Shown here one piece after another: positions 33,568-50,351 of a DNA stretch of 52,939 bases (positions are counted from its first letter, which is position 1; every line of letters starts with the position of its first letter). The stretch covers positions 1 to 52,939 of the IMG/VR virus record IMGVR_UViG_3300028388_001804. One strand, 5' to 3'. The notes beneath the pieces were generated by a model. That model had not been told where the DNA came from. It saw only the letters and a list, made by a program, of their open reading frames with translations, and made no database searches. The stretch comes from a virus. The translations under genes and the position numbers were made by a program.

Positions 33568-34731
33568 TTAATCAACTTTTGCCCCTTTTCTTTTCAGTTC
33601 TTCTTCTAAATCTTTATAGATATTAGACAAATCTGAAGCAGGGTCATATATTTTATATTGCTCTAAGAAAAATGCTATGACTTTTGATTTGTTTGTACCT
33701 AACTTGTGTAAATTAGGTTGATCGTATTTAGCGTGCCAGATAAAATACCCATCAACAGGAGTAATCACTTTATAATTCAGTGCTTGTTGAAATATAAAAT
33801 GAACATGAAATAAAGCTCTAGTTTTAGAACTTTTTGCCATTTTATAAACATCTAAAAACTTCTTTATATTGTGAGGTTTACTTCGCGCATCTGTTGTATG
33901 TAAATAATCGTTTAATCTTTCTTTAACAGTATCAGAAGACACTTCACCTATAACTAAAGGTCTGCCGTTTTTCCAAGTTAGTAATGAAGCAACTTGAAAT
34001 ATAACTGAATCTGATTGTTTTGTAAGAAGATGTACTAATTCACTAATAGCTAAGTTAAATTGATTTACTTTAGCTAATTTTTCAGCTCTTTCTTCGTTTT
34101 CTTCTGAAATATAAAAGATATGATAGGCTGAATTTTGCTCTTCTTTACTCTTAGCAATTAAAGGATGTATTTTAATTAATTCTAAAGCAAGATCATTTTT
34201 TGGTGTTCCTGACTGTATTCTAATTACGTCATCGTATAAAAAGTATTTAAACGACTGTAAATATGAAGGAGTGCTTGACTTGACCAAATCTCTCATATCT
34301 TGATTTTTAGGAATATTAAAAATAGTATATCCAGATAAATGAGAAGTATAAAAATCTTTAGGACGTTTATGTTCTATTTCATAATACACTTGTTTTGTAA
34401 TTTCATCTGCTTCTACGATGTGTTCTAAATCTCCATTTGACCAAGATGAATCAAGGGCATAAGCATTTTTTATTTCTTGAGCATTTCTTCCTTTAAAAGG
34501 ATTTGACATAAGTTCATCTAATCCTGTTATAAGTTTATTATTAGAGTGATCTATTGGAAACATTATAACTTCAGATGTTTTAACTTTGCCATAAGCTTTA
34601 GTAGCTTTGAATGGATTAGATGCCACTGTTTCACCAGTGGCATTCTTTATTGTCCATGTTAAATTATGATAACCGTGTACTGTTGTTCTTTCTACAGGAC
34701 GTAAGAATACTGTTCTTGTTCTTTTTTTCAT
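33568..34731 (-). CDS. Conserved head-module protein downstream of MCP
   Basis: 387 residues, basic N-terminus (MKKRTRTVFLRPVERTTVHG). The N-terminal third is beta, and the rest is helical and charged with a Lys-rich end (KRKGAKVD). No enzyme motif is seen. It lies 18 nt after the MCP stop and is probably an auxiliary capsid or head-completion protein. Assignment rests on context. Confidence 0.45.
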   Translation of the reverse strand: MKKRTRTVFLRPVERTTVHGYHNLTWTIKNATGETVASNPFKATKAYGKVKTSEVIMFPIDHSNNKLITGLDELMSNPFKGRNAQEIKNAYALDSSWSNGDLEHIVEADEITKQVYYEIEHKRPKDFYTSHLSGYTIFNIPKNQDMRDLVKSSTPSYLQSFKYFLYDDVIRIQSGTPKNDLALELIKIHPLIAKSKEEQNSAYHIFYISEENEERAEKLAKVNQFNLAISELVHLLTKQSDSVIFQVASLLTWKNGRPLVIGEVSSDTVKERLNDYLHTTDARSKPHNIKKFLDVYKMAKSSKTRALFHVHFIFQQALNYKVITPVDGYFIWHAKYDQPNLHKLGTNKSKVIAFFLEQYKIYDPASDLSNIYKDLEEELKRKGAKVD

Positions 34732-34749
34732 TAAAATTTAATTTGAAAT

Positions 34750-36336
34750 TTAATCAAATTGAATACGACCGATTCTAGATACATCAAAAATACCTAAAGA
34801 TCCGTCTAAAGTGCGGTAGAATGATGCGTCTTTATTTAAAGAATAAGCATTACTTCCGTCTTTAATTGCTCCTGTATATGGATCATATACGTTAGAAACT
34901 GTGAAGTATTCTTCTACGCCATGTTCTCTAACCATAACCATATTATCTTTGCGACTTGCATTTGCAGGAGCTTGTTTAGTATGTCCAAAATCATAAATGT
35001 CATAACAATATGATTCTTTAGTATTTGATGTTCCTGGAGCCAATGTTCTATATAACTGAGGATCATCTTTTGTAGGATCGTATACTAATTCTACTGTAAT
35101 ACCATTAGGGGCGAGCCACTTTGTAAACTGAGATCCGTACTCTAATTCGTGTTTATGGAATCCACTTCCTCCATCTTTACGTTCACGAATAAAATGCGTG
35201 TCCATTACAGTATGAATCTTAGCTTCTTCACCTAAGAGTCTTTGCATATAAGCAATACCTCCTGTACCTGATACAAGTTTAATATGTCTTTCACTAAATG
35301 GAGTTCTAGTAATAAACTTGTTCATAAGATACTGATATATCTCATCCAAAGTTACACTACCGTTATGGCGTAATACAGACGAGTCTTTGACCATCTCTTC
35401 CCATCCCGGAGCTGTTCTTTGTTTTTTATTAGTATCTACATCATAAGTACTTTCATTCCTACCAAACTGCATTAAATTCTCTCTGTCCATTTGAACTTTC
35501 TCTTCAAGACGAGCTTCTAAAGCAGTTATAAATGTGTTAGCTTTAATTTCTTTACCAGTACCATTACGGTATGTTGTCTGCCAAACGTGTCCTATGCCGA
35601 TAGATTTATCCGAATCATAGTTTTCTGGAAGAGATCTTCTTTCTTGTCTACATCCAATTTCAGTTCTAATCATTTTATCAGTTACAGTTGCTTTTCTAGC
35701 TACAACTCCAATATGAGATTGAAGCTTATGCACATCGCTGAACTGTTGACCTCCAAACTTTTTGTTCGATTCATCAGGTACTGCTGTAGCTAAGTCAATA
35801 GCTTTTCTACCCGGTTGCAGGTATTCTGCAGGAATCCAATCGTTAGGATTAGATGATTGAATAACACCTCTGTATTTATATACATTTTCAGACAATTTAA
35901 CTGGATCTCCTATAATTCTAATGCCCGGTAAATTGTCTGCTTCAGTTTTAATAATTACAGGTTCGTGTAACCAACCTTTGTCAAGAGTAAATTCAAACTC
36001 TTCCCCACCTTTTCCTACTTGGTCAGATGCTCCTACAAGTAGATCACAAAAAGTAAATTCTACTCTAGGTGAAGCAACTAATTTCCAAGAGTAATGAGAA
36101 ATACCCCCTGGAAGCCAATAAACTCTGTTTTCTGCAGCAGTAAGATAAGTGAATTTTTTATTCATAAGATGTCCCCCTAAATCTGAAGAGAACATATTTG
36201 TAGAAACCACGCCAAAATCATAAGCTTGGTATTTTCTAAACATTCTATTGTAAGTAAGTGCATCAAAATAAGTACCACCGAAAGATGTTCTTTCTACTGT
36301 GGTAACTGCACTTCTACGAGATAATGGTGATGTCAT
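34750..36336 (-). CDS. Major capsid protein (HK97 fold, crAss-like)
   Basis: 528 residues, the size of crAss-like MCPs. It is encoded directly after the portal and an acidic scaffold-like protein, and its sequence is highly soluble and balanced in composition (VERTSFGGTYFDALTYNRMF near the N-terminus; FYRTLDGSLGIFDVSRIGRI at the C-terminus). HK97-fold capsid proteins keep little primary sequence, so the call relies on the conserved order terL-portal-scaffold-MCP, on length and on general resemblance to crAss-like MCPs. The start codon overlaps the stop of the scaffold-like gene by one base (TAATG). Confidence 0.78.
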   Translation of the reverse strand: MTSPLSRRSAVTTVERTSFGGTYFDALTYNRMFRKYQAYDFGVVSTNMFSSDLGGHLMNKKFTYLTAAENRVYWLPGGISHYSWKLVASPRVEFTFCDLLVGASDQVGKGGEEFEFTLDKGWLHEPVIIKTEADNLPGIRIIGDPVKLSENVYKYRGVIQSSNPNDWIPAEYLQPGRKAIDLATAVPDESNKKFGGQQFSDVHKLQSHIGVVARKATVTDKMIRTEIGCRQERRSLPENYDSDKSIGIGHVWQTTYRNGTGKEIKANTFITALEARLEEKVQMDRENLMQFGRNESTYDVDTNKKQRTAPGWEEMVKDSSVLRHNGSVTLDEIYQYLMNKFITRTPFSERHIKLVSGTGGIAYMQRLLGEEAKIHTVMDTHFIRERKDGGSGFHKHELEYGSQFTKWLAPNGITVELVYDPTKDDPQLYRTLAPGTSNTKESYCYDIYDFGHTKQAPANASRKDNMVMVREHGVEEYFTVSNVYDPYTGAIKDGSNAYSLNKDASFYRTLDGSLGIFDVSRIGRIQFD

Positions 36337-37319
36337 TAACTAAGTATTTTAAAACTTGCTGGCTTTAAGCCGTTATTTTGCATGTTAAGTTGTTGCTGGA
36401 ATCCTCCGGCAACAGAGTTACTCTTAAATTTATCAGAGTAAAAATTTCTCAGTAAATTAGAATTATTGGTATTATTTTGACTAGAATTAGGTTCTATATA
36501 CTTACCATCTTTTATCCTAGAGCCAAATCTTAGAAAGTGTACAAATAACTCAGGACTACTTTGAATTGTATCCATGAGTTCTTGTAATTTATTTCCTGTA
36601 AATTGACTTAATAATTCTGATTTAACACGAGGGCTAAATTCTTTATTATTATTAACAAGTTCAATAACCTTAGAGCTAAAAGTTCTAGCCTCGGTTTCAG
36701 CTCTTTCTTTATTCAGTCGTTGGTTATTTAACTCTTCTTGTTCTTTTGCTTTTTTTTCTAAAAGCAAGGCTTCTTTTCTTTTTGAAGCTTTATCTATTAA
36801 TCTGTTTGAAGATTCTAAACTATCTAATAATGTATTAATTTCTTCGTCTGTAGCATCAGGAAGAAGATTTTTATAGTCATTTTCTAAAAAAGATCTTGCT
36901 GAATCAGCGTTAGAAACATCTACAGATTCTACTGACACTTTTTCTCGGACATTAGAAAAGAAATTACTTAGTTCTTCTAATGTAGCATTTTCTGACAAGC
37001 TTGCAGCATACTCAAATAAACTTTTAGCTACTGGAGGTAAAGATTCAACAACTTTATTCCTATAATACTCAGGAAGCTTATTTAAAGCTTCATCTAAAGT
37101 TTCTAACTTGCCATCAAAGTTTTCAATTGCAGGTATTGCATTTTTTTCTAAAAGTACATTATAAATACCCGTAGCCATATCAGGAGCATCTTGCGATGTT
37201 GTTGTAGTAGGCTGTTCACTTAAATCTTGTTCAAGTTCTTTAAACAAATCATCTGATAATGTTATTCCTTGGACCTCCTTATTTTCTTCTGATGTAGGAG
37301 TGTTATTATTGTTTTCCAT
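36336..37319 (-). CDS. Scaffold-like acidic coiled-coil protein
   Basis: 327 residues. The N-terminal half is very acidic (SDDLFKELEQDLSEQPTTTT; DATDEEINTLLDSLESSNRL). A long Lys/Glu coiled coil follows at about 175-210 (KRKEALLLEKKAKEQEELNN) and the tail is Asn/Gln-rich. Composition and position between portal and MCP are those of capsid scaffolds, which template head assembly and then leave. No protease motif is seen. It overlaps the portal gene by 14 nt. Confidence 0.6.
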   Translation of the reverse strand: MENNNNTPTSEENKEVQGITLSDDLFKELEQDLSEQPTTTTSQDAPDMATGIYNVLLEKNAIPAIENFDGKLETLDEALNKLPEYYRNKVVESLPPVAKSLFEYAASLSENATLEELSNFFSNVREKVSVESVDVSNADSARSFLENDYKNLLPDATDEEINTLLDSLESSNRLIDKASKRKEALLLEKKAKEQEELNNQRLNKERAETEARTFSSKVIELVNNNKEFSPRVKSELLSQFTGNKLQELMDTIQSSPELFVHFLRFGSRIKDGKYIEPNSSQNNTNNSNLLRNFYSDKFKSNSVAGGFQQQLNMQNNGLKPASFKILS

Positions 37320-39792
37320 TATTTATTTTCTGATTTTCTAGTTCAATTTTATTATGATGTTCGTAAGTCTTATGGTCTAACTCCAGTTGTTTTTCTTCTA
37401 AAGAAACTTCAGACTTCATCATTTCAGTTTTTCTTCTTTCTATCTCTTTTACGACAATTTTTTCAATCTCATGTTTCTGATGATCTTCTCTAAGTATATT
37501 TTGCTGTTCTACAAGCTCTTTCTGAGCTTTACTTTGAGCTTCTTGCATTTCTTTTAATCTTTTAGCTCTTTTGTTAGCTTCCTCTTCAATAGCTGCATGT
37601 ATCTCTGAAGCAGAGGCGTTGTGTGTCATTAGCTTAACTAAGCGAGAAACAGATTCAATACCTTCTCCTGCATTTTGAGCAAATGCGTGAACTAATTGCA
37701 TCATAGTTTCTGTATATCTACTGCTAGAATCAGAAGAAGACAGCCAGAGTCCAAAGTCGTTGTAAGATAAATGATCTTCAGTTATTTTAAATATCACTTT
37801 ATTGCCTTCACTGGTAACATAAGTCATATACTGAGCAGTTTCTCCATTTTCAAATCTTTCTCTAATACAGATTCGATAAAGTTCTAACCAATAGTTTATC
37901 GTTCTTCTCCAAAAATTTAATGTTTTTTCAAAGTAAACTTTGGTCATTGTATAGGATCTTTGAATAGCTTCATTATCTGAAGACGCTGTAACTCCTTGTG
38001 TGAAATGAGCTTCTCTTTGAGGAGATATACCCATAGTATAACTTATTTCTCTATCAAGAAGACTAATTAAATTTTGTAGTGCTAGTATTTCATTTGCACT
38101 CCCAAGTTTAAATACTTGTCCCCCCGGAGTCCTAGTATGAGTTACTATAGCATCATCTGATGTCTGAGATCCTGAGTATAGAGATACATTATGATCTTCT
38201 AACATTCTAAACCAAGCAATTGTAGGGTCTTGAATATAATTACCGTCAGCATCTTTTCCAAGATCATCAGGTATTTGATCTACATCCACTGAATGAATAA
38301 AAGATTTATATTTAGATATTTCTTTATTTTGAATAAGTTTTAAATAAAATATTTGAAACATAATTGGGATAACTCTTTCAACTATTGATACAGCGTTAGA
38401 GTTTCTTTCTTCAAGAAGAACTCCATGGTATGATAAAGAAAAAGAACTAAACGGTCTTTCCATATTCAGAGGTTGTATCGGGACTTGACGACATTTCTTG
38501 AATATTTTACCGTCTATAACAAACATTTCATAAGCTCTTGGAATCCAATGTTCCTCTAGTTGAAAATATTGTTCTAATTCATCGTCATACCAATTGTAAG
38601 ATGTATATACATCTCCATATACATTTGTAGTCTTTTCTTTTTTAGCTTTTTTAGGTATCTTGTATGCTTCTGAAAATACTTTTACATCTTTATCTCCATC
38701 ATCATTATAAGATATTCTAAAATATATTTTATCGTAAGCTTTAAATTCTACATGAGATACCCAGTATAAATCTGAATTGCTATTATATCTAGCAGTTGAA
38801 TTGGATTGATATAATCCTGTATTTCTATCAGACCATGTATTTACAGTGTTTGCGTCGTATATAGACCATTCATAAGCACCTAAACTGTTTTGAATAGGTT
38901 CAGCTTTAGAAAATATATTATGTCTTTTATCGTAATTAGATATTAATCCTGAATCAGTACCAAGCTCTTTTAATTCTTCTTCTGTTAAATCTAAGGAGTC
39001 TATAAGTTCTGATTTGGTCATGACCGTGTTATATTTAAACCATTCTGATTTAGATATAAATTCTTGATCTGGAGATTTTTTGTAATTAACTCTTAAAGGA
39101 TTAATTACATCAATAACTGGCATACCATGTTTTATACTAACTTTAGTGTATGCTTCATTAGATATAACAGCATCAATCCAAGTATCTGTAGCTTTTTTAG
39201 CTACATCTTGACTGTATAAACATAGTTTTACTCCGTGAGACATGAACACTTCCCAATCTGTTAAAAAATCTTGTTGTATAACTTCTGCAGGAGAAGGCTG
39301 AGTAGTATTTTCCTCTAAATACGTTTGTTTTTCAAGAGGATTTAAATTCTCAGCTTCAAGTTCATTTTGTAGTTTTTCTTTTAAAGCATTTTTAAAATGT
39401 TTCTTTTTCAGCTCATTTTTCTTTTTAAAAGCTGAAGAAGTCAAAGGAACTACAATAAATTTATTATTTGATTGGATCATATTTAAAAAATCTCCTGCTA
39501 GAACATTAACTTTAGTATATATTTTATTATTATACGGCAATATACTTTCTACATTTATAGCTTCGGACTTTTCTCCTGTTAAAGATGAATACTGTTTTAT
39601 TAAATTTTTATATGTAGAAATATTATTATTTAATATTTCATAACATTGTTTTTTTCTTTCGTAATCTGGAGTTTCTGTAAAAGAAGAAGATATGTTGATG
39701 TCCCAAAAAGTTTTAAACCATTGATTGTCGTTAGCATGTTTTTCTTTACCTGAAACTTTTAAACTGAAAAAATTATCTGTATTTATTTTCAT
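37306..39792 (-). CDS. Portal protein
   Basis: 828 residues, directly after terL (20-nt overlap). The middle part carries the long wing/stem-type segments expected of portals, and the C-terminal about 100 residues form a Gln/Glu/Lys-rich coiled coil (KAQKELVEQQNILREDHQKH), like the crown/barrel extension of large portals. Portals form the dodecameric ring through which DNA is packaged and ejected. The identification depends on order, size and architecture and agrees with crAss-like portals of about 800 residues. Confidence 0.75.
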   Translation of the reverse strand: MKINTDNFFSLKVSGKEKHANDNQWFKTFWDINISSSFTETPDYERKKQCYEILNNNISTYKNLIKQYSSLTGEKSEAINVESILPYNNKIYTKVNVLAGDFLNMIQSNNKFIVVPLTSSAFKKKNELKKKHFKNALKEKLQNELEAENLNPLEKQTYLEENTTQPSPAEVIQQDFLTDWEVFMSHGVKLCLYSQDVAKKATDTWIDAVISNEAYTKVSIKHGMPVIDVINPLRVNYKKSPDQEFISKSEWFKYNTVMTKSELIDSLDLTEEELKELGTDSGLISNYDKRHNIFSKAEPIQNSLGAYEWSIYDANTVNTWSDRNTGLYQSNSTARYNSNSDLYWVSHVEFKAYDKIYFRISYNDDGDKDVKVFSEAYKIPKKAKKEKTTNVYGDVYTSYNWYDDELEQYFQLEEHWIPRAYEMFVIDGKIFKKCRQVPIQPLNMERPFSSFSLSYHGVLLEERNSNAVSIVERVIPIMFQIFYLKLIQNKEISKYKSFIHSVDVDQIPDDLGKDADGNYIQDPTIAWFRMLEDHNVSLYSGSQTSDDAIVTHTRTPGGQVFKLGSANEILALQNLISLLDREISYTMGISPQREAHFTQGVTASSDNEAIQRSYTMTKVYFEKTLNFWRRTINYWLELYRICIRERFENGETAQYMTYVTSEGNKVIFKITEDHLSYNDFGLWLSSSDSSSRYTETMMQLVHAFAQNAGEGIESVSRLVKLMTHNASASEIHAAIEEEANKRAKRLKEMQEAQSKAQKELVEQQNILREDHQKHEIEKIVVKEIERRKTEMMKSEVSLEEKQLELDHKTYEHHNKIELENQKINNGKQ

Positions 39793-41560
39793 TATATAAT
39801 TTTTTACTCATTGATATTATAGCAAGTTTATTTTTTGTTTTTTTAATTGCTTTAAGTTCAGCTGAATGTCTATCTTCTTTTATCCCTATAGCACACCCTA
39901 CTAAACTCATAACAGCATCGTAATTTCCTGAATCAAGTTCAAAACTTGCTATTTGTTTTAATGTAAAAATACAAGGTAAAGTTTCTATTACCAGTCTTTC
40001 TGTTCCATCAGATAGTTTAACTGTTTCTAATAACAAATCTCTTAAAGTTTCTAAGTATTGAATTTTAGAAACTCTATTTCCTACCATATATCCATATTGC
40101 GTTACTTTTTGCTGTTTAATAGAACTACCTACAGATTTACTAGGTCTTAAAGCTAATAATGAAGATTTATTTTTTCGGTAATAATAATCTTTACAAGCTT
40201 GTCCTCTGTTTGCTTCATAATGCAACCCTCTAGTAGGATTGCCATATAAAGCTAGAAGTTTTTCTTGGTTTTGATAGTACTCTTCTTTACCGTTAAAAGG
40301 TTTGCCTATGTATGTAGCTACAAGAGGAGATTTTTTCATAAATGTACTCCAATATTTAGGATTCATCATAACATGAGTAGATCCTAAAGACCCACCGTTT
40401 TCTGTGTTATCAGATACATAAGGGTCATGTCCAATATATTTATACATATCATCAGGAATAGTGCCATTTATTTTAACAGGAGGTTCGTACATTACAATAG
40501 CTCCTGCTAGGTCGTCTCTAGCATTCCAATTTTTTATATCGTAAAAAGGTTCAGATTTAAAGTCTACATTATATTTAATTTTATAATCTTTTGTAGAATC
40601 CCATGTTAAAGTAATAGGAGTACCTATAGTCTTGTAAAGAGAATTTTTTTCAAGTTGAGATATTCTTTCTATTGCAAGATCAGAAGGTAGTATAGACCCT
40701 TTAGAATTAACCCACATATCTGAAATTTTAACAGGATAATTCATTTTGTGCATACGAAGTGCTAAAGGATTGTTTGACTTAGAATGCTTATCTTCCTGTT
40801 TTGCAACAGCAGCTTTTGCCTTTTCAAAATCAAGATTACCATTCTCATCTCTGTAGTCATGAATAAAAGCTTGATATGCAGGAATAAAAAATCCTACTGG
40901 CTTATCAGTTTTTTCCCATATATCTTCATAGCTTACTATATTATAAGCTTCTGTAGATGTAAACATTTCTTTAGATGCAAGAATTGTTTCCATATGTCCA
41001 GAAGTTCCTAAAAATATTTGCACTCCAAATTGATCTTTTGGATCTGGAGTTACAGATACAGTTGCCATATTAGATCTATAAACTTTTCTCACATTTGCAA
41101 CTAAACCAACTTCTTCAATAATAGAAGTTACATATCGACCACCTGCCGCTGCTTCAGCTCCATCTTTTTTCTTAGAAGAATATAGTATATGGTATAAAGC
41201 AGATTGAGTGCCGTAACCATCAATCCATCGACCTCTCACTTTCTTCTTATAATTATGTCTCCACCCTTTAGTTTCTTTATTACCTGATTTAGTAGATCCC
41301 ATCATATCTTTGAAAAAAGGATTTGGTCTATAGTCTTGGTCGGTAGGTTTACCCCATACACCAAGATCTTGATTGTGTGCAAATTCATTCATACACTCAA
41401 CCATTTTATTTATAAACTCACCTGATTTTTTAGAATCTGATGAACCCACTGCAACGTGTATTCTATTCGGATTTTTAATAGATTCTTCTGTATAATATTT
41501 AGCTGAATCAAACACAAGATCATGCAGACCTTCTTCTAACGATATTTTATAACTTTTTCC
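39773..41560 (-). CDS. terL: Terminase large subunit, exon 2
   Basis: Exon 2 starts at 41560 with GGA AAA AGT TAT (Gly-Lys-Ser-Tyr), completing the Walker A motif begun in exon 1, and runs 595 codons to the stop. Joined to exon 1 the protein is about 777 residues and reads LGTRGG-GKSYKISLEEGLHD. Downstream, SIIEEVGL fits the Walker B/catalytic Glu region, and YIGHDPYVSDN carries the Asp of the RNase H-like nuclease that cuts concatemers. A GTG at 41515 could start a shorter polypeptide, but that would lack the P-loop. The end overlaps the portal start by 20 nt. Confidence 0.88.
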   Translation of the reverse strand, partial: GKSYKISLEEGLHDLVFDSAKYYTEESIKNPNRIHVAVGSSDSKKSGEFINKMVECMNEFAHNQDLGVWGKPTDQDYRPNPFFKDMMGSTKSGNKETKGWRHNYKKKVRGRWIDGYGTQSALYHILYSSKKKDGAEAAAGGRYVTSIIEEVGLVANVRKVYRSNMATVSVTPDPKDQFGVQIFLGTSGHMETILASKEMFTSTEAYNIVSYEDIWEKTDKPVGFFIPAYQAFIHDYRDENGNLDFEKAKAAVAKQEDKHSKSNNPLALRMHKMNYPVKISDMWVNSKGSILPSDLAIERISQLEKNSLYKTIGTPITLTWDSTKDYKIKYNVDFKSEPFYDIKNWNARDDLAGAIVMYEPPVKINGTIPDDMYKYIGHDPYVSDNTENGGSLGSTHVMMNPKYWSTFMKKSPLVATYIGKPFNGKEEYYQNQEKLLALYGNPTRGLHYEANRGQACKDYYYRKNKSSLLALRPSKSVGSSIKQQKVTQYGYMVGNRVSKIQYLETLRDLLLETVKLSDGTERLVIETLPCIFTLKQIASFELDSGNYDAVMSLVGCAIGIKEDRHSAELKAIKKTKNKLAIISMSKKLYNENKYR

Positions 41561-42461
41561 CTTTGTGGATCATATCATTTCCTACAACTCTACTTGTTTA
41601 GGAATTATGCGCTGTTTAAGTTTTAATTTGATTTTATACTGCATGGAAGGATGAATATAAGGCTCTATTATCTTAGAGAACTTTTTAAACTCTTTAGTAC
41701 CCATAGCCAATCTGGTGAATTGTTTATCTTTATGTATATTCCATTTAATTCCCCATCTTTCTTGAAAGTATTTTACAATAATTTCGTTACATTCTCGGCT
41801 AATGTAAGTGTTTAAAGTACAATGTACTTTAGTATACACACCATTACGAGAATAATGAGATAATGATCCATCATCCATATACCAAATAGCTAACTCTAAA
41901 GGCGATAATTTATTTAATACTCTCCTTGTTATTGCTTTTTTCCCGTTTCGATATAACAGATTATATAACGGTTTTAAAACTTTCTTATTACATTTTTCAT
42001 ACTGTAAAGCAGTAATATTGCTATACCCACTATTTTTATAAATAGTATAATAAGAAGTTCTAGGAGTTTTAGAGAGTATTTGTTCTAATTTTTTAGCCTT
42101 CCAATGAAAATATTCACTTTGTTTCGAAGAATGTTTCATTAGAAATCTGTATCGAATATATTTTTTCTGTATGACTCCTTTTGAAATGCACCCGTCCCCA
42201 ATTGCACATCCTAGTATAAATCTTTTTTCTTCTTTTGTCATAACCTTATGGTTATATTTAATAATTTAAAACTTAATGATCTCTGAACGTTCGTCTTATT
42301 TTCACTTAGACGCTTCGCTGCTGATTGTACGATAAGAATAAATCTTCAAGCGTGCCATATAAGATTTCTCTTTCTGTTTTAGCTTTATTCTTTTAGCTGT
42401 AGTTTCCAGCAATTCACATAATATTATATCTTTATATTTCTATAAAGGAGGGCAGAATTTT
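41561..42461 (-). mobile_element. Group I intron in terL (901 nt) with LAGLIDADG gene
   Basis: The intron interrupts terL between the GGT and GGA codons of the P-loop. The 5' exon ends in ...GTGGGGGT. GGGGGU can pair with GCCCUC at the intron start to form a 6-bp P1 with the expected U-G pair at the cut. Core elements are present in order: P (AATTGCTGGAAACT, 42401-42414), Q (AATCAGCAGC, 42317-42326), R (ACGTTCAGAGATCAT, 42276-42290) and S (AATGATATGATCC, 41567-41579). R GATCAT pairs with S ATGATC to give P7. The last intron base is G (41561). The endonuclease gene lies between R and S, i.e. in the P8 region. Confidence 0.92.
41582..42241 (-). CDS. LAGLIDADG homing endonuclease, intron-encoded
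   Basis: 219 residues with two LAGLIDADG-type helices, FILGCAIGDGCI (about 8-19) and LAIWYMDDGSL (about 116-126). Each ends in the acidic Asp-Gly that supplies a catalytic aspartate, so the protein acts as a monomer. It would cut intronless terL alleles at the P-loop codons and so spread the intron; it could also act as a maturase. The stop (41582) lies just before the S element, so the gene occupies the P8 loop without disturbing the ribozyme core. Confidence 0.93.
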   Translation of the reverse strand: MTKEEKRFILGCAIGDGCISKGVIQKKYIRYRFLMKHSSKQSEYFHWKAKKLEQILSKTPRTSYYTIYKNSGYSNITALQYEKCNKKVLKPLYNLLYRNGKKAITRRVLNKLSPLELAIWYMDDGSLSHYSRNGVYTKVHCTLNTYISRECNEIIVKYFQERWGIKWNIHKDKQFTRLAMGTKEFKKFSKIIEPYIHPSMQYKIKLKLKQRIIPKQVEL

Positions 42462-43007
42462 ACCCCCACGAGTGCCAAGTATAAAAAAATTCTTAGCACC
42501 ATTTAAATATAAAGGAACACCTTTTGGTTTATCATGTAATTTATACAAATATTGTTTAGGCGGTACATAAGTTTTCCAAGAACCGTCAGGTTTTTTTAAA
42601 TAAGGTAAATGTCTTTTTGGTATATCTTCTTCACTAAAAGCAGTTGTAATACCTTCATAACAAGTGTATTCTGTATCATCTTTAAACCCAGAAAACCCTC
42701 TGGCTATGAGCAGTCCATAGCTCATAGTCCAATCAACATCTCTCATTACAGGTCTGATGAGTTTACGTCCTTTTGTAAACTCATCCACATCAACAATAAC
42801 ACACATATTATGGTACCACTGCATTTTACCGCTGCAATATCTGTATCCATTATTTTCTTTAGCCCAATAACCTTCTATAAATCTTCTCTTTAACTTAGAC
42901 CAGTAATCGACATACCTTAGTTCATCCGCAGGATTTATTTTTTCAAAAGAATCAATTAACCAAGTATTCCTGTTTTCTATCTGAACCCAGTAGTCTTTAT
43001 CTAACAT
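42462..43007 (-). CDS. terL: Terminase large subunit, exon 1
   Basis: 182 codons from ATG at 43007, overlapping the upstream stop as TAATG. It ends NGAKNFFILGTRGG at the 5' splice site. Without splicing, reading continues nine codons into the intron (KILPSFIEI, stop at 42432), giving a 191-residue product with a broken P-loop and no ATPase activity. The N-terminal region (RYCSGKMQWYHNMCVIVDVD) resembles crAss-like TerL. Packaging therefore depends on intron removal. Confidence 0.88.
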
Positions 43008-44607: not shown

Positions 44608-44793
44608 TTAATTTAAAAGTTCTATTTCATTAAATTTAACTGTTCTAGAGCCTTTTAGTTTATTTTTTCTTTTTGTACTGTAAATAGTAATTAACTGGTC
44701 TTGAGCTTCAAGTAATTGTATTTCTTCTAAAGACTTACCTGTAGTTTTCAGGTAATAAACATTATTCAGATACTTTACTGTTATTATTCTCAT
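44608..44793 (-). CDS. Small basic protein, unknown
   Basis: 61 residues starting MRIITVKYLNNVYYL. An in-frame ATG at 44829 would add 12 residues inside the upstream gene. The sequence is beta-rich and basic (KRKNKLKGSRTVKF), possibly nucleic-acid binding. No family recognised. The end is 6 nt before the next gene. Confidence 0.4.
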   Translation of the reverse strand: MRIITVKYLNNVYYLKTTGKSLEEIQLLEAQDQLITIYSTKRKNKLKGSRTVKFNEIELLN

Positions 44794-45064
44794 GGTCATG
44801 AAGTATAAATAAAATTGAAGCAGCTGCATGAGCTAAATGTGGTAGTCCAGATTCAGAATCTAGGTATTCGCCTTTTTTATGTTGCCATAAATGTCTTTGC
44901 GCAGCATTCCAGAACCTTTCATCTAGATTGTTCAGTAACATCCAATTGTTTTTAGAATATTTTTTATTACCGTACATTTGAACTTTAATAACTTTTTCTA
45001 AAGCTTTAACAGGTAATAATGACCATTCTAATTTATCTTTATCATTTTTCTGTCCTTTATTCAT
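44762..45064 (-). CDS. dATP/dGTP diphosphohydrolase-like (DUF5664) protein
   Basis: 100 residues. The pattern KLEWSLLPVKALEKVIKV..YG.KKY...NW, then RHLWQHKKGEYLDSESGLPH followed by LAHAAASILFIL, is that of the phage dATP/dGTP diphosphohydrolase N-terminal family (related to MazG/MazZ all-alpha NTP pyrophosphatases). Such enzymes adjust dNTP pools and in some phages serve modified-base genomes. No PurZ or DatZ gene is visible in this window, so base modification is not implied. It overlaps the DUF2829-like gene by 4 nt. Confidence 0.7.
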   Translation of the reverse strand: MNKGQKNDKDKLEWSLLPVKALEKVIKVQMYGNKKYSKNNWMLLNNLDERFWNAAQRHLWQHKKGEYLDSESGLPHLAHAAASILFILHDHENNNSKVSE

Positions 45065-45413: not shown

Positions 45414-45803
45414 TTAAGTTAAATCCATTTCATGATGTTCCTGAGTAGTAATATCTTGAGTAGTGCCACCATCTCTATTATTATCTACACTATCTAAATT
45501 AAACCCATTAGGATACCTTTTTAATAGCTTGTCTATGTTTTTTTTCATTACACTATTTAATGTTCCGCCTGTTTCTGAAGCTAATGCAGTAAGATACCAC
45601 AATACATCACCTAATTCTTTATCTAAAGCTTCTATGTCAAGAGACTTACCATGAAAAGACCATTTTTTAATTAGTTCAACAACTTCTCCAACTTCACCTG
45701 AAAGACCAAGAGCATAGTTTATTGCTGATAATTTATGATCTGAAACTTTAGGATTATTGTTCATCGTACGCTTAACTGCAAGATTATAAGTATCTGCTTT
45801 CAT
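45414..45803 (-). CDS. MazG-like nucleotide pyrophosphohydrolase
   Basis: 129 residues. NYALGLSGEVGEVVELIKKW supplies the E-x-x-E metal-binding pair and KELGDVLWYLTALASETG the E-x-x-D pair of the all-alpha MazG fold. These enzymes hydrolyse (d)NTPs to monophosphates or lower alarmone-related signals. The C-terminus after residue 105 is a low-complexity polar tail (NRDGGTTQDITTQEH). With the DUF5664-like gene two genes downstream it forms a small nucleotide-pool set. Confidence 0.82.
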   Translation of the reverse strand: MKADTYNLAVKRTMNNNPKVSDHKLSAINYALGLSGEVGEVVELIKKWSFHGKSLDIEALDKELGDVLWYLTALASETGGTLNSVMKKNIDKLLKRYPNGFNLDSVDNNRDGGTTQDITTQEHHEMDLT

Positions 45804-47815: not shown

Positions 47816-48290
47816 CTGATTTAAATTCTTTATAAAGACCTATTAAAAAATTAGCTGGTATTTTCTCTTTTTTCATTTTATTATCTAAAGAATCTTCTGA
47901 AATTATATTTGCTTTTAATCTATTCCAATACCCAGAAGGTAAGAAAACAATGAATTTTTCATCTAATCCTGCAATAAATCTATCTTCGTATTGTGAAAGT
48001 TTTGATTTCCACACTTGTTTTGTACTATCAGTTTTCATTATATTTAGTAATGAAACTACAATTCTATAAACATCTGTAGATACATTAATCTTTTTATATT
48101 CATTTACAATAGTAATTTCATTATCTTTAATAATATAGTCTGTAGAGAGAATGCAAGGATGTTTTTCATGCTCTATAACATTATATTTATCAAGATCAAG
48201 TAAGTTTATTTTTATATCTGATTTTGCAAACTTAAAAATTTCTGTTAATGTATATTTCTTTTCTTTCGAAAATAGAGAAGTTAATTTCAT
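47760..48290 (-). CDS. Protein downstream of GroEL, unknown
   Basis: 176 residues, Lys-rich, alpha/beta (YTLTEIFKFAKSDIKINLLD; FIAGLDEKFIVFLPSGYWNR). No family recognised. Its start overlaps the GroEL stop by 4 nt (ATGA), so it is translated with the chaperonin and could be a partner or client. Confidence 0.45.
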   Translation of the reverse strand: MKLTSLFSKEKKYTLTEIFKFAKSDIKINLLDLDKYNVIEHEKHPCILSTDYIIKDNEITIVNEYKKINVSTDVYRIVVSLLNIMKTDSTKQVWKSKLSQYEDRFIAGLDEKFIVFLPSGYWNRLKANIISEDSLDNKMKKEKIPANFLIGLYKEFKSDEKDVFLKNFKEQNKTAK

Positions 48291-49822
48291 TGTATTAAAA
48301 TATTTTCTGTTAATAATACTGTTTTTGCTGTGGATACAGCTGTTTTCAAGGCAGTTTGTAGGACAAATGCAGAGTCTAGTACCCCTTCTTTGCGAAGATC
48401 CCCGTAAGAGAGTGTATGGGCATTGAAAAGGTAATTTTTATCATAGTCTATATCTTTTAATATAGTGTCTGCGTGTAAGCCTGCATTCTCTAGTATTTTT
48501 TTAGCAGGAGATCGTAAGGCTCTTTCTAAGATTTTAGCTCCTGTATTATCAGGGTATTCTAAGATGTAGCTTTTTAAAAAATCTGCTATATAGTATAATA
48601 AAAATCCTCCACCTACTACCGTACCATGAATCTGTGCTGATTTAGTAGATAAAACTGCATCTTCGGTACGATGTACTTTTTCCAAAGCCTCTATTTCAGT
48701 TTGTGCGCCTATCTTTATAGTAGCTATTCCTCCTGCTAATGATGCCAATCTTTTTTCAAATCTAGATTTATCGTAAGTATTAGTTGAAGATTTAATGTCT
48801 TCTTTAATAGCAGTTATCCTTTCTTCTAAATCCTCAGGATGATAAGAATCAGAAAATATAATAGTGTGGTCTTCTTTTATGATAATTTCATTTACCGAAC
48901 CAAGGCTATTTTCAGGAGAATAATCTGTTAAAAGTGTGTCAGCTTCTTCTTTTATAAAATATCCATTACTAACTAAGGCAATATCATCTAGTATTTCAAT
49001 TCTTTCTTCTCCGTATGAAGGTAATTTACAAAAAGCTATTTGCGTTCCTTCAGATCGAAGATTGAATGCTGCTGCTAGAGTTTGAGTAGAAGCTTCGTCA
49101 CAAAAAATTACAATAGGACGATCTAAGTTCTGAGCATAAATAATGTATTCTTTTACATCGAGTATAGACCCTATGTTTTTATCTGTTATTAAAATTAGAG
49201 CATCTTTAAATTTTACAAAATCTTTTTTATTATTGAAAGAAGGATGAACATATCCTGTTCTAAAGTGCATTCCTTCGGTTATATGCAATGTAGTTTCTTT
49301 TTTGAAAGAAGGTTCTATTTTAACCAGTCCATTTACTCCTACTGTATCAAAAGCTTCCCCTATGAGGCGACCAATATACTGATCGTTATTAGCTGATATA
49401 GTTGCAACTTGAATTAATTCTTCTTTTTTTGTTATCTTTTCAGCTGATGTTTTTATAAGATCTTCAAGTACTGTTTGTATTGAAGTAAGTTGTCGGGCTA
49501 TGTCAATAGGATGAGTAGAATCAGAATATTTTATAGCCTCTTTTATTATTTCTGCTGCTAAAAGTGTGCAGGTAGTAGTAGCATCTCCAGCTTCAGTAAC
49601 AGCTTTATTTGCAGCCTCTATAACCAGTTCAGCTCCTAAATTCTCATATTTATCTTTAAATTTAATTGCTTTAGCTACAGTAACTCCATCTTTTGTAATT
49701 ATAGGTCCGACATCTTCAGGATCCCTTATAAGAACATTTCTACCTTTCGGTCCTAATGTAGAGGATACTACACTACTTAAATTAAGTATTCCAGTTAAAA
49801 GTTTATGTTTATTAGATTCCAT
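48287..49822 (-). CDS. groEL: Phage GroEL chaperonin (HSP60)
   Basis: 511 residues from MESNKHKLL (an in-frame ATG at 49843 would add seven). Class I hallmarks are SSTLGPKGRNVLI, IITKDGVTVAKAI (catalytic Asp of TKDG), AGDATTTCTLLA (Asp of the GDGTTT loop kept, Gly to Ala) and EDAVLSTKSAQIHGTVVGGG (Asp of the hydrolysis motif kept). ATPase residues are thus intact. The C-terminal Gly-Gly-Met tail of bacterial GroEL is absent, and apical-domain sequence is divergent. It probably folds a phage capsid or tail protein, or works with the GroES-like protein two genes upstream. The gene overlaps both neighbours, so it belongs to the late operon and is not a recent insert. Confidence 0.95.
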   Translation of the reverse strand: MESNKHKLLTGILNLSSVVSSTLGPKGRNVLIRDPEDVGPIITKDGVTVAKAIKFKDKYENLGAELVIEAANKAVTEAGDATTTCTLLAAEIIKEAIKYSDSTHPIDIARQLTSIQTVLEDLIKTSAEKITKKEELIQVATISANNDQYIGRLIGEAFDTVGVNGLVKIEPSFKKETTLHITEGMHFRTGYVHPSFNNKKDFVKFKDALILITDKNIGSILDVKEYIIYAQNLDRPIVIFCDEASTQTLAAAFNLRSEGTQIAFCKLPSYGEERIEILDDIALVSNGYFIKEEADTLLTDYSPENSLGSVNEIIIKEDHTIIFSDSYHPEDLEERITAIKEDIKSSTNTYDKSRFEKRLASLAGGIATIKIGAQTEIEALEKVHRTEDAVLSTKSAQIHGTVVGGGFLLYYIADFLKSYILEYPDNTGAKILERALRSPAKKILENAGLHADTILKDIDYDKNYLFNAHTLSYGDLRKEGVLDSAFVLQTALKTAVSTAKTVLLTENILIQ

Positions 49823-50351
49823 TTTTCTTGAACATTTCAACATCGTAATATTTAATATTTAATCTTTTAGAAAATATTAAATCTGAATTAGAAAAATCTT
49901 TTTTAGAGTTGTACTTATTTTTAGGATCATAACAAACAAATTCGTTATTATCGTCATAATGTTTGTTTAGTCCGCTTGCATCTCCTATCATAATATAATT
50001 CTCAGGATTACTATCTTTGAGTTCTTGTAAAGCTTCTAAGCCCATAGCCACGTTAGGTTTATGTCTATATGTTTTAGTGCCGTCTGAATAGAAGTAATTT
50101 ACTGGGACTTGTAGGTAAGTTTCAAGACTTTCAGATACCGAATTTAATTTTTCAACTATATCTTTTTCCTGAAAGTATCCATGTTTTATACCTCCTTGAT
50201 TTGTAATTATTGTTACACTTTGTAAATCAGATATTTCCAGTAGACGAGATACAACAGTATCATCAAATATCCAATCTTCTTTAGAAATTGGAAAAGTTTC
50301 TCCTGTTAATGTAGTGATAAGAGTGTGGTCTAAGTCTATAAGTACTCTCAT
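49812..50351 (-). CDS. HAD-family phosphatase (PNKP/HisB-like)
   Basis: 179 residues with all four HAD motifs: MRVLIDLDHTLI (I, nucleophile Asp7 and Asp9), TIITNQGG (II), RHKPNVAMG (III, Lys) and YIMIGDASG (IV). TNQGGI is typical of polynucleotide 3'-phosphatases and histidinol-phosphate phosphatases, both in the HAD III-A group. A DNA/RNA 3'-end repair phosphatase is the likelier role in a phage; there is no kinase domain attached. It lies between the GroES-like and GroEL genes with overlaps of 4 and 11 nt. Confidence 0.82.
   Translation of the reverse strand: MRVLIDLDHTLITTLTGETFPISKEDWIFDDTVVSRLLEISDLQSVTIITNQGGIKHGYFQEKDIVEKLNSVSESLETYLQVPVNYFYSDGTKTYRHKPNVAMGLEALQELKDSNPENYIMIGDASGLNKHYDDNNEFVCYDPKNKYNSKKDFSNSDLIFSKRLNIKYYDVEMFKKNGI

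Follow-up and report, generated by a model that had tools for sequence, protein, structure and literature searches.

A probable mobile group I intron among the Walker A glycine codons of terL in a crAss-like phage

Introns and inteins of phages gather at catalytic motifs in core enzymes, for reasons that are still sought; one viral locus that bears on this is described here. In the IMG/VR virus record IMGVR_UViG_3300028388_001804, a stretch of 52,939 nucleotides that was analysed whole and is called the window below, the gene for the large terminase subunit (TerL) is interrupted at its Walker A motif (P-loop). A sequence-only reading of this DNA had proposed that a group I intron cuts terL through the Walker A codons. 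Our analysis makes it very probable that the insert is a mobile group I intron, carrying an I-SceI-like LAGLIDADG open reading frame (ORF), and that it separates the second glycine codon from the third in the Walker A motif of a TerL of crAss-like type.

All features of the gene and of the intron described here lie on the minus strand. Exon 1 (42462..43007; 546 nt, 182 codons) encodes TerL residues 1-182 and ends with CTT GGC ACT CGT GGG GGT (LGTRGG). Exon 2 (39773..41560; 595 amino acids) begins with GGA AAA AGT TAT (GKSY) and encodes the remainder of the ATPase and the nuclease domain, up to the stop codon. The intron between them (41561..42461; 901 nt) has the termini AAAATTCTGCCC...CCACAAAG: a U precedes the 5' splice site, and the 3' terminus, CACAAAG at 41561, has G as its final base, as is the rule for group I introns. 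The exon and intron limits of the sequence-only reading, and its reading of the exon ends as GTRGG and GKSY, proved exact to the base and agree with the translation.

Joining the exons at 42462/41560 generates an ORF of 777 amino acids in which GTRGGGKSY is restored in frame, the product that had been predicted. The unspliced reading ends after 191 codons, nine of which are inside the intron (GTRGG-KILPSFIEI, followed by the stop codon), again as had been foreseen, and an intact TerL requires in-frame splicing. When 11,011 pairs of candidate splice points near the junction (91 x 121) were scanned, the P-loop and the full ORF were recovered by two pairs only; of these, only 42462/41560 places a U at position -1 and lets the intron end in G.

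Searched separately, both exons matched the terminase large subunit family PHROG 6681 (exon 1 at E 4e-6, exon 2 at 3.7e-46). The sequence-only reading had suggested aligning the joined protein with an intronless crAss-like TerL; against that of the viral contig L083, the alignment showed 50% identity over 776 columns (769 bits) and was ungapped over the P-loop junction. The nearest TerL from a named phage is that of Cellulophaga phage phi14:2 (Crassvirales), and a crassvirus muzzle protein is also encoded in the window. The joined protein is a crAss-like (Crassvirales) TerL with its Walker A motif restored. No second terL copy is expected beyond the 53-kb linear fragment that makes up the genome record, and we infer, in line with the earlier proposal, that packaging by this TerL may depend on the ribozyme.

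The fold of the intron RNA was examined by comparison with relatives, of which L001, L002, L003 and L004 came from an endonuclease search of viral contigs and L097 from an alignment-based TerL search. The introns of L002 and L003 are identical in the core parts compared, so that five distinct introns remained: those of the window, L001, L002, L004 and L097. Because MAFFT alignments of the core misplaced P1 and P2, the helices were assigned by hand and matched sequence by sequence rather than through a covariance model. A layout consisting of P1, P2, P3, P4, P5, P6a, P7, P8 and P10 fits all five introns, with 233 of 254 cells paired.

In the window intron, P1 is formed by the exon strand GGGGGU (42462..42467), which corresponds to the Gly-Gly codons, and by the internal guide GCCCUC (42448..42453), whose G lies opposite the U that ends exon 1 at 42462. 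The layout is identical in the four relatives, in which exon and guide co-vary. The adjoining UUCU (42454..42457) pairs with GGAA at the start of exon 2 (41560..41557) as P10. P2 is the hairpin CUUUAUA-GAAA-UAUAAAG (42430..42447), paired in 33 of 35 cells over the five introns. P4 pairs UUGCUG (42407..42412) with CAGCAG (42323..42318) and is uninformative for covariation because it is invariant.

P3 joins UUAUG (42417..42421) to CAUAA (41605..41609), and both sides are changed in every relative: the pairs are UUAUG/CAUAA in the window, UCUCG/CGAGA in L001, UAUCG/CGAUA in L004 and AUACG/CGUAU in L097. The P6a hairpin CGUCU...AGACG (42292..42312) shows compensatory changes in the relatives, and together with P2 and the P8 hairpin UUCCUA...UAGGAA (41579..41604) it varies as freely as P3, with pairing kept. 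P7 consists of GAUCA (42277..42281) and UGAUC (41568..41572) in the window versus GACUA/UAGUC in the relatives.

When the 3' strands were shuffled among the five sequences (120 permutations), the observed pairing was the best of the 120 for P2, P3 and P6a, and that of P10 was reached by 2 of them. The intron RNA has a P3-P8/P4-P6 core with a P3/P7 pseudoknot, maintained by compensatory changes, and both this comparison and the Pfam result given below agree with the earlier reading, in which a group I intron carries the ORF of an endonuclease.

Several results weigh against that assignment. Assigning the helices by hand biases the pair counts towards structure, and P1 and P7 taken singly were no better than permutation (24 of 120 each), as they show little variation. 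The best Rfam match of the 5' half of the window intron, RF00028 at 18.9 bits (E 0.008), is far under the gathering threshold of that family, 50 bits; no Rfam match at gathering score was obtained for the whole window or for L001-L004; and the full window intron, searched at E values up to 10, gave chance snoRNA-like matches only. In favour of the assignment, RF00028 was the top match not only for the 5' half of the window intron but also for those of L001 (30.3 bits, E 3.2e-6) and L097 (37.3 bits, E 2.4e-8), both below the threshold; we take the match to be real, although it does not reach the gathering score.

The intron contains an ORF of 219 amino acids (41582..42241) for a homing endonuclease of the LAGLIDADG_2 family (Pfam PF03161, 1.4e-31; PHROG 11023). 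The Pfam match spans positions 3-168 of 168, a full-length domain, and both LAGLIDADG motifs, GCAIGDG and LAIWYMDDG, are kept with their acidic residues in the aligned relatives. The closest solved structure is that of I-SceI (PDB match over residues 88-205, 5e-11), an enzyme that resides in a yeast mitochondrial rRNA intron. The window protein resembles I-SceI and the LAGLIDADG_2 family in being intron-encoded and in its sequence; cleavage by it is predicted. The ORF follows the 5' strand of P7 and precedes P8, except that its final codons double as P3' and as the 5' strand of the P8 helix. The start codon of the endonuclease is overlapped by a predicted hairpin, AUAACC-AUAA-GGUUAU (42239..42256), and hairpins of differing sequence are predicted at or just 5' of this codon in all five introns; they might extend the paired regions of the ribozyme or block translation.

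The RNA folds around P3-P8 and P4-P6, and its guide pairs in P1 with the six final bases of exon 1 and in P10 with the four initial bases of exon 2. By analogy with known group I introns, GTP would then initiate two transesterifications that link GGU to GGA and give GTRGGGKS, possibly by self-splicing without the help of a protein. In a mixed infection the endonuclease may cleave the P-loop codons of terL alleles that lack the intron, after which repair would copy the intron into the cut allele. The sporadic distribution and the empty sites described below point to such homing only indirectly. The suggestion that the conserved motif serves as the endonuclease target fits this scheme, the P-loop codons being a plausible homing target.

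Other explanations of the split gene have to be considered. The window is a single metagenomic fragment and its intron scores weakly in Rfam, as might be the case if a decayed, non-splicing remnant were left in an assembled genome that is itself defective or chimeric, with terL simply broken. We regard this as very improbable: the exons and the endonuclease ORF are all intact, the helices are preserved through two-sided changes, the P1 and P10 guides match the window copy's own shifted site, and the same arrangement was found in four other phages. Even less credit can be given to two TerL polypeptides cooperating without splicing, namely the 191-amino-acid product of exon 1 and a product starting at GTG 41515. 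Both reading frames are open, but the P-loop is split or lost in each piece, joining recovers the exact P-loop, and the ORF is continuous in close relatives that lack the intron.

Inteins use the same motif in relatives, which raises the question of whether the insert is an intein, or a group II intron, instead of a group I intron. This is the least probable of the alternatives and is refuted by the frame, since the exon frame meets a stop after nine codons of the insert; moreover, the endonuclease has a start codon of its own in a different frame, the P/Q/R/S elements typical of group I introns are present, and P3 and P7 covary. A motif search with Q and R found no second intron of the same family in the window.

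The site occupied by the group I intron differs from that of its relatives. In L001, L002, L004 and L097 the introns lie between G[S/A]R[G/S] and GGKS, and in the window between GTRGG and GKS: the four relatives are inserted one codon upstream, so that the window copy sits 3 nt further on. The window intron belongs to a lineage that is located one codon upstream in these four other phages. P10 in the relatives is CCGUU with GGCGG, or CACU with GGUG. Exon and guide agree at their own site in every copy, and P10 of the window fits the start of its shorter exon 2. The insertion point would have shifted 3 nt inside the run of glycine codons, and on either side the pairings of the guide fit the intron's own site.

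We are inclined to see in this offset the separate arrival of a related intron in the neighbouring glycine codon, rather than the sliding of an inherited one. The introns are scattered over the TerL tree; the window endonuclease is nearest to its L001 homologue (58% identity), but the window TerL is nearest to the L082/L083 group, which has an intein between GK and S or nothing; and the GGN repeats offer several sites ending in U. With only five introns, however, re-insertion is indistinguishable from sliding. If the codon shift holds, the window might represent a natural case of an insertion-site shift in a coding repeat.

In the tree of TerL exon 2 (62 rows), five separate changes are needed to account for the five intron-bearing rows, and well-supported branches impose every one of them; the intein-bearing rows are equally scattered, at each insertion point. 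Inteins were found between GGGK and S in terL of L082, L098, L137, L146 and L147, and ahead of the motif arginine, immediately in front of the stretch (S/A)RGGGKS, in L090, L092 and L094. A precise empty site is present in L118, which is 92.2% identical to the intron-bearing L002 across 2,190 aligned terL bases. Insertion at an invariant codon run had been thought to protect the intron from loss; its sporadic presence, the five changes on the tree and the empty site of L118 do not bear this out, since repeated colonisation together with empty sites in close relatives, either vacated or never filled, speaks against such protection. The site seems instead to give repeated colonisation and turnover, be it through repeated loss or repeated gain. 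On balance we favour the view that the terL P-loop is a hot spot, spanning a few codons, for one group I lineage and for inteins at two other positions, and that the intron has moved by one glycine codon, with P1 and P10 matching the new site.

Differences between L118 and L002 are more frequent near the insertion site of L002 (9/51 versus 162/2139; p 0.015). As a denser stretch of differences exists elsewhere, a co-conversion tract around this insertion is suggestive only and we do not claim it.

A search with TerL through genome contigs of bacteria and archaea yielded no relative. A pattern scan for further P-loop introns returned only the known terL ones, a non-TerL match and chance matches. 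In L185, L186 and L192 a group I-like intron end (GATATAGTCC) immediately precedes GGKSYVCLVGHTASANFN (GGKSY) in a non-TerL gene. In L160 and L161 the TerL homology is interrupted elsewhere, near window TerL residues 367 and 338-388, suggesting inserts.

Group I introns of terL with confirmed splicing have been described in Bacillus phages SIOphi and phiAGATE (PMC11878797), in Vibrio phage ICP1, by RNA sequencing and reverse transcription-PCR (PMC10448857), and in the Jug phages (PMC12363816). As in the window, a group I intron interrupts terL in these phages, whereas their TerL proteins belong to other families. In our reading of NC_015157 (L199; about 34390-34757, minus strand), the ICP1 intron also lies inside Walker A, between GGA and AGGGKS, and the exon bases GGUGCU face the guide GGUACC. 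The ICP1 paper (PMC10448857), when searched by word, contained no mention of P-loop, Walker or ATPase. The ICP1 endonuclease is of the T5orf172 type and encoded outside the intron, whereas that of the window is an intron-encoded LAGLIDADG protein. Apparently, ICP1 and the window phage represent independent uses of the same motif in different TerL families.

Both introns and inteins are found in crAss-like phages, and TerL of the Delta group typically holds an intein (Yutin 2021, PMC7886860). Those phages belong to the same order as the window phage, and like it they have core genes interrupted by group I introns that carry LAGLIDADG ORFs; the window differs in having a group I intron at the P-loop of TerL. 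In mycobacteriophages, the TerL inteins TerL1-a and -b are inserted into Walker A at two sites that differ by a single residue (PMC5050341): the same motif is a hot spot, but these elements are in-frame inserts removed by protein splicing rather than by RNA splicing. Introns in terL are thus already known; less expected are the shift by one codon and how many different elements share a single motif. The empty, intron and intein alleles of terL among related phages provide a test of how motif constraint attracts different mobile elements. There is also a warning for annotation: TerL, the main marker of crAss-like phages, may show as two fragments without a P-loop.

The gene next downstream of terL encodes the portal protein (37306..39792, minus strand; PHROG 6547, 3.4e-49). 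Upstream of terL, genes for a MazG-like pyrophosphohydrolase (45803..45414) and for the N-terminal domain of a dATP/dGTP diphosphohydrolase (45064..44762) lie near each other. The phage also carries a GroEL-like chaperonin gene (49843..48287), which is resembled, by eye, by ORFs located 3' of terL in L001 (8339-9832) and L004 (4977-6416).
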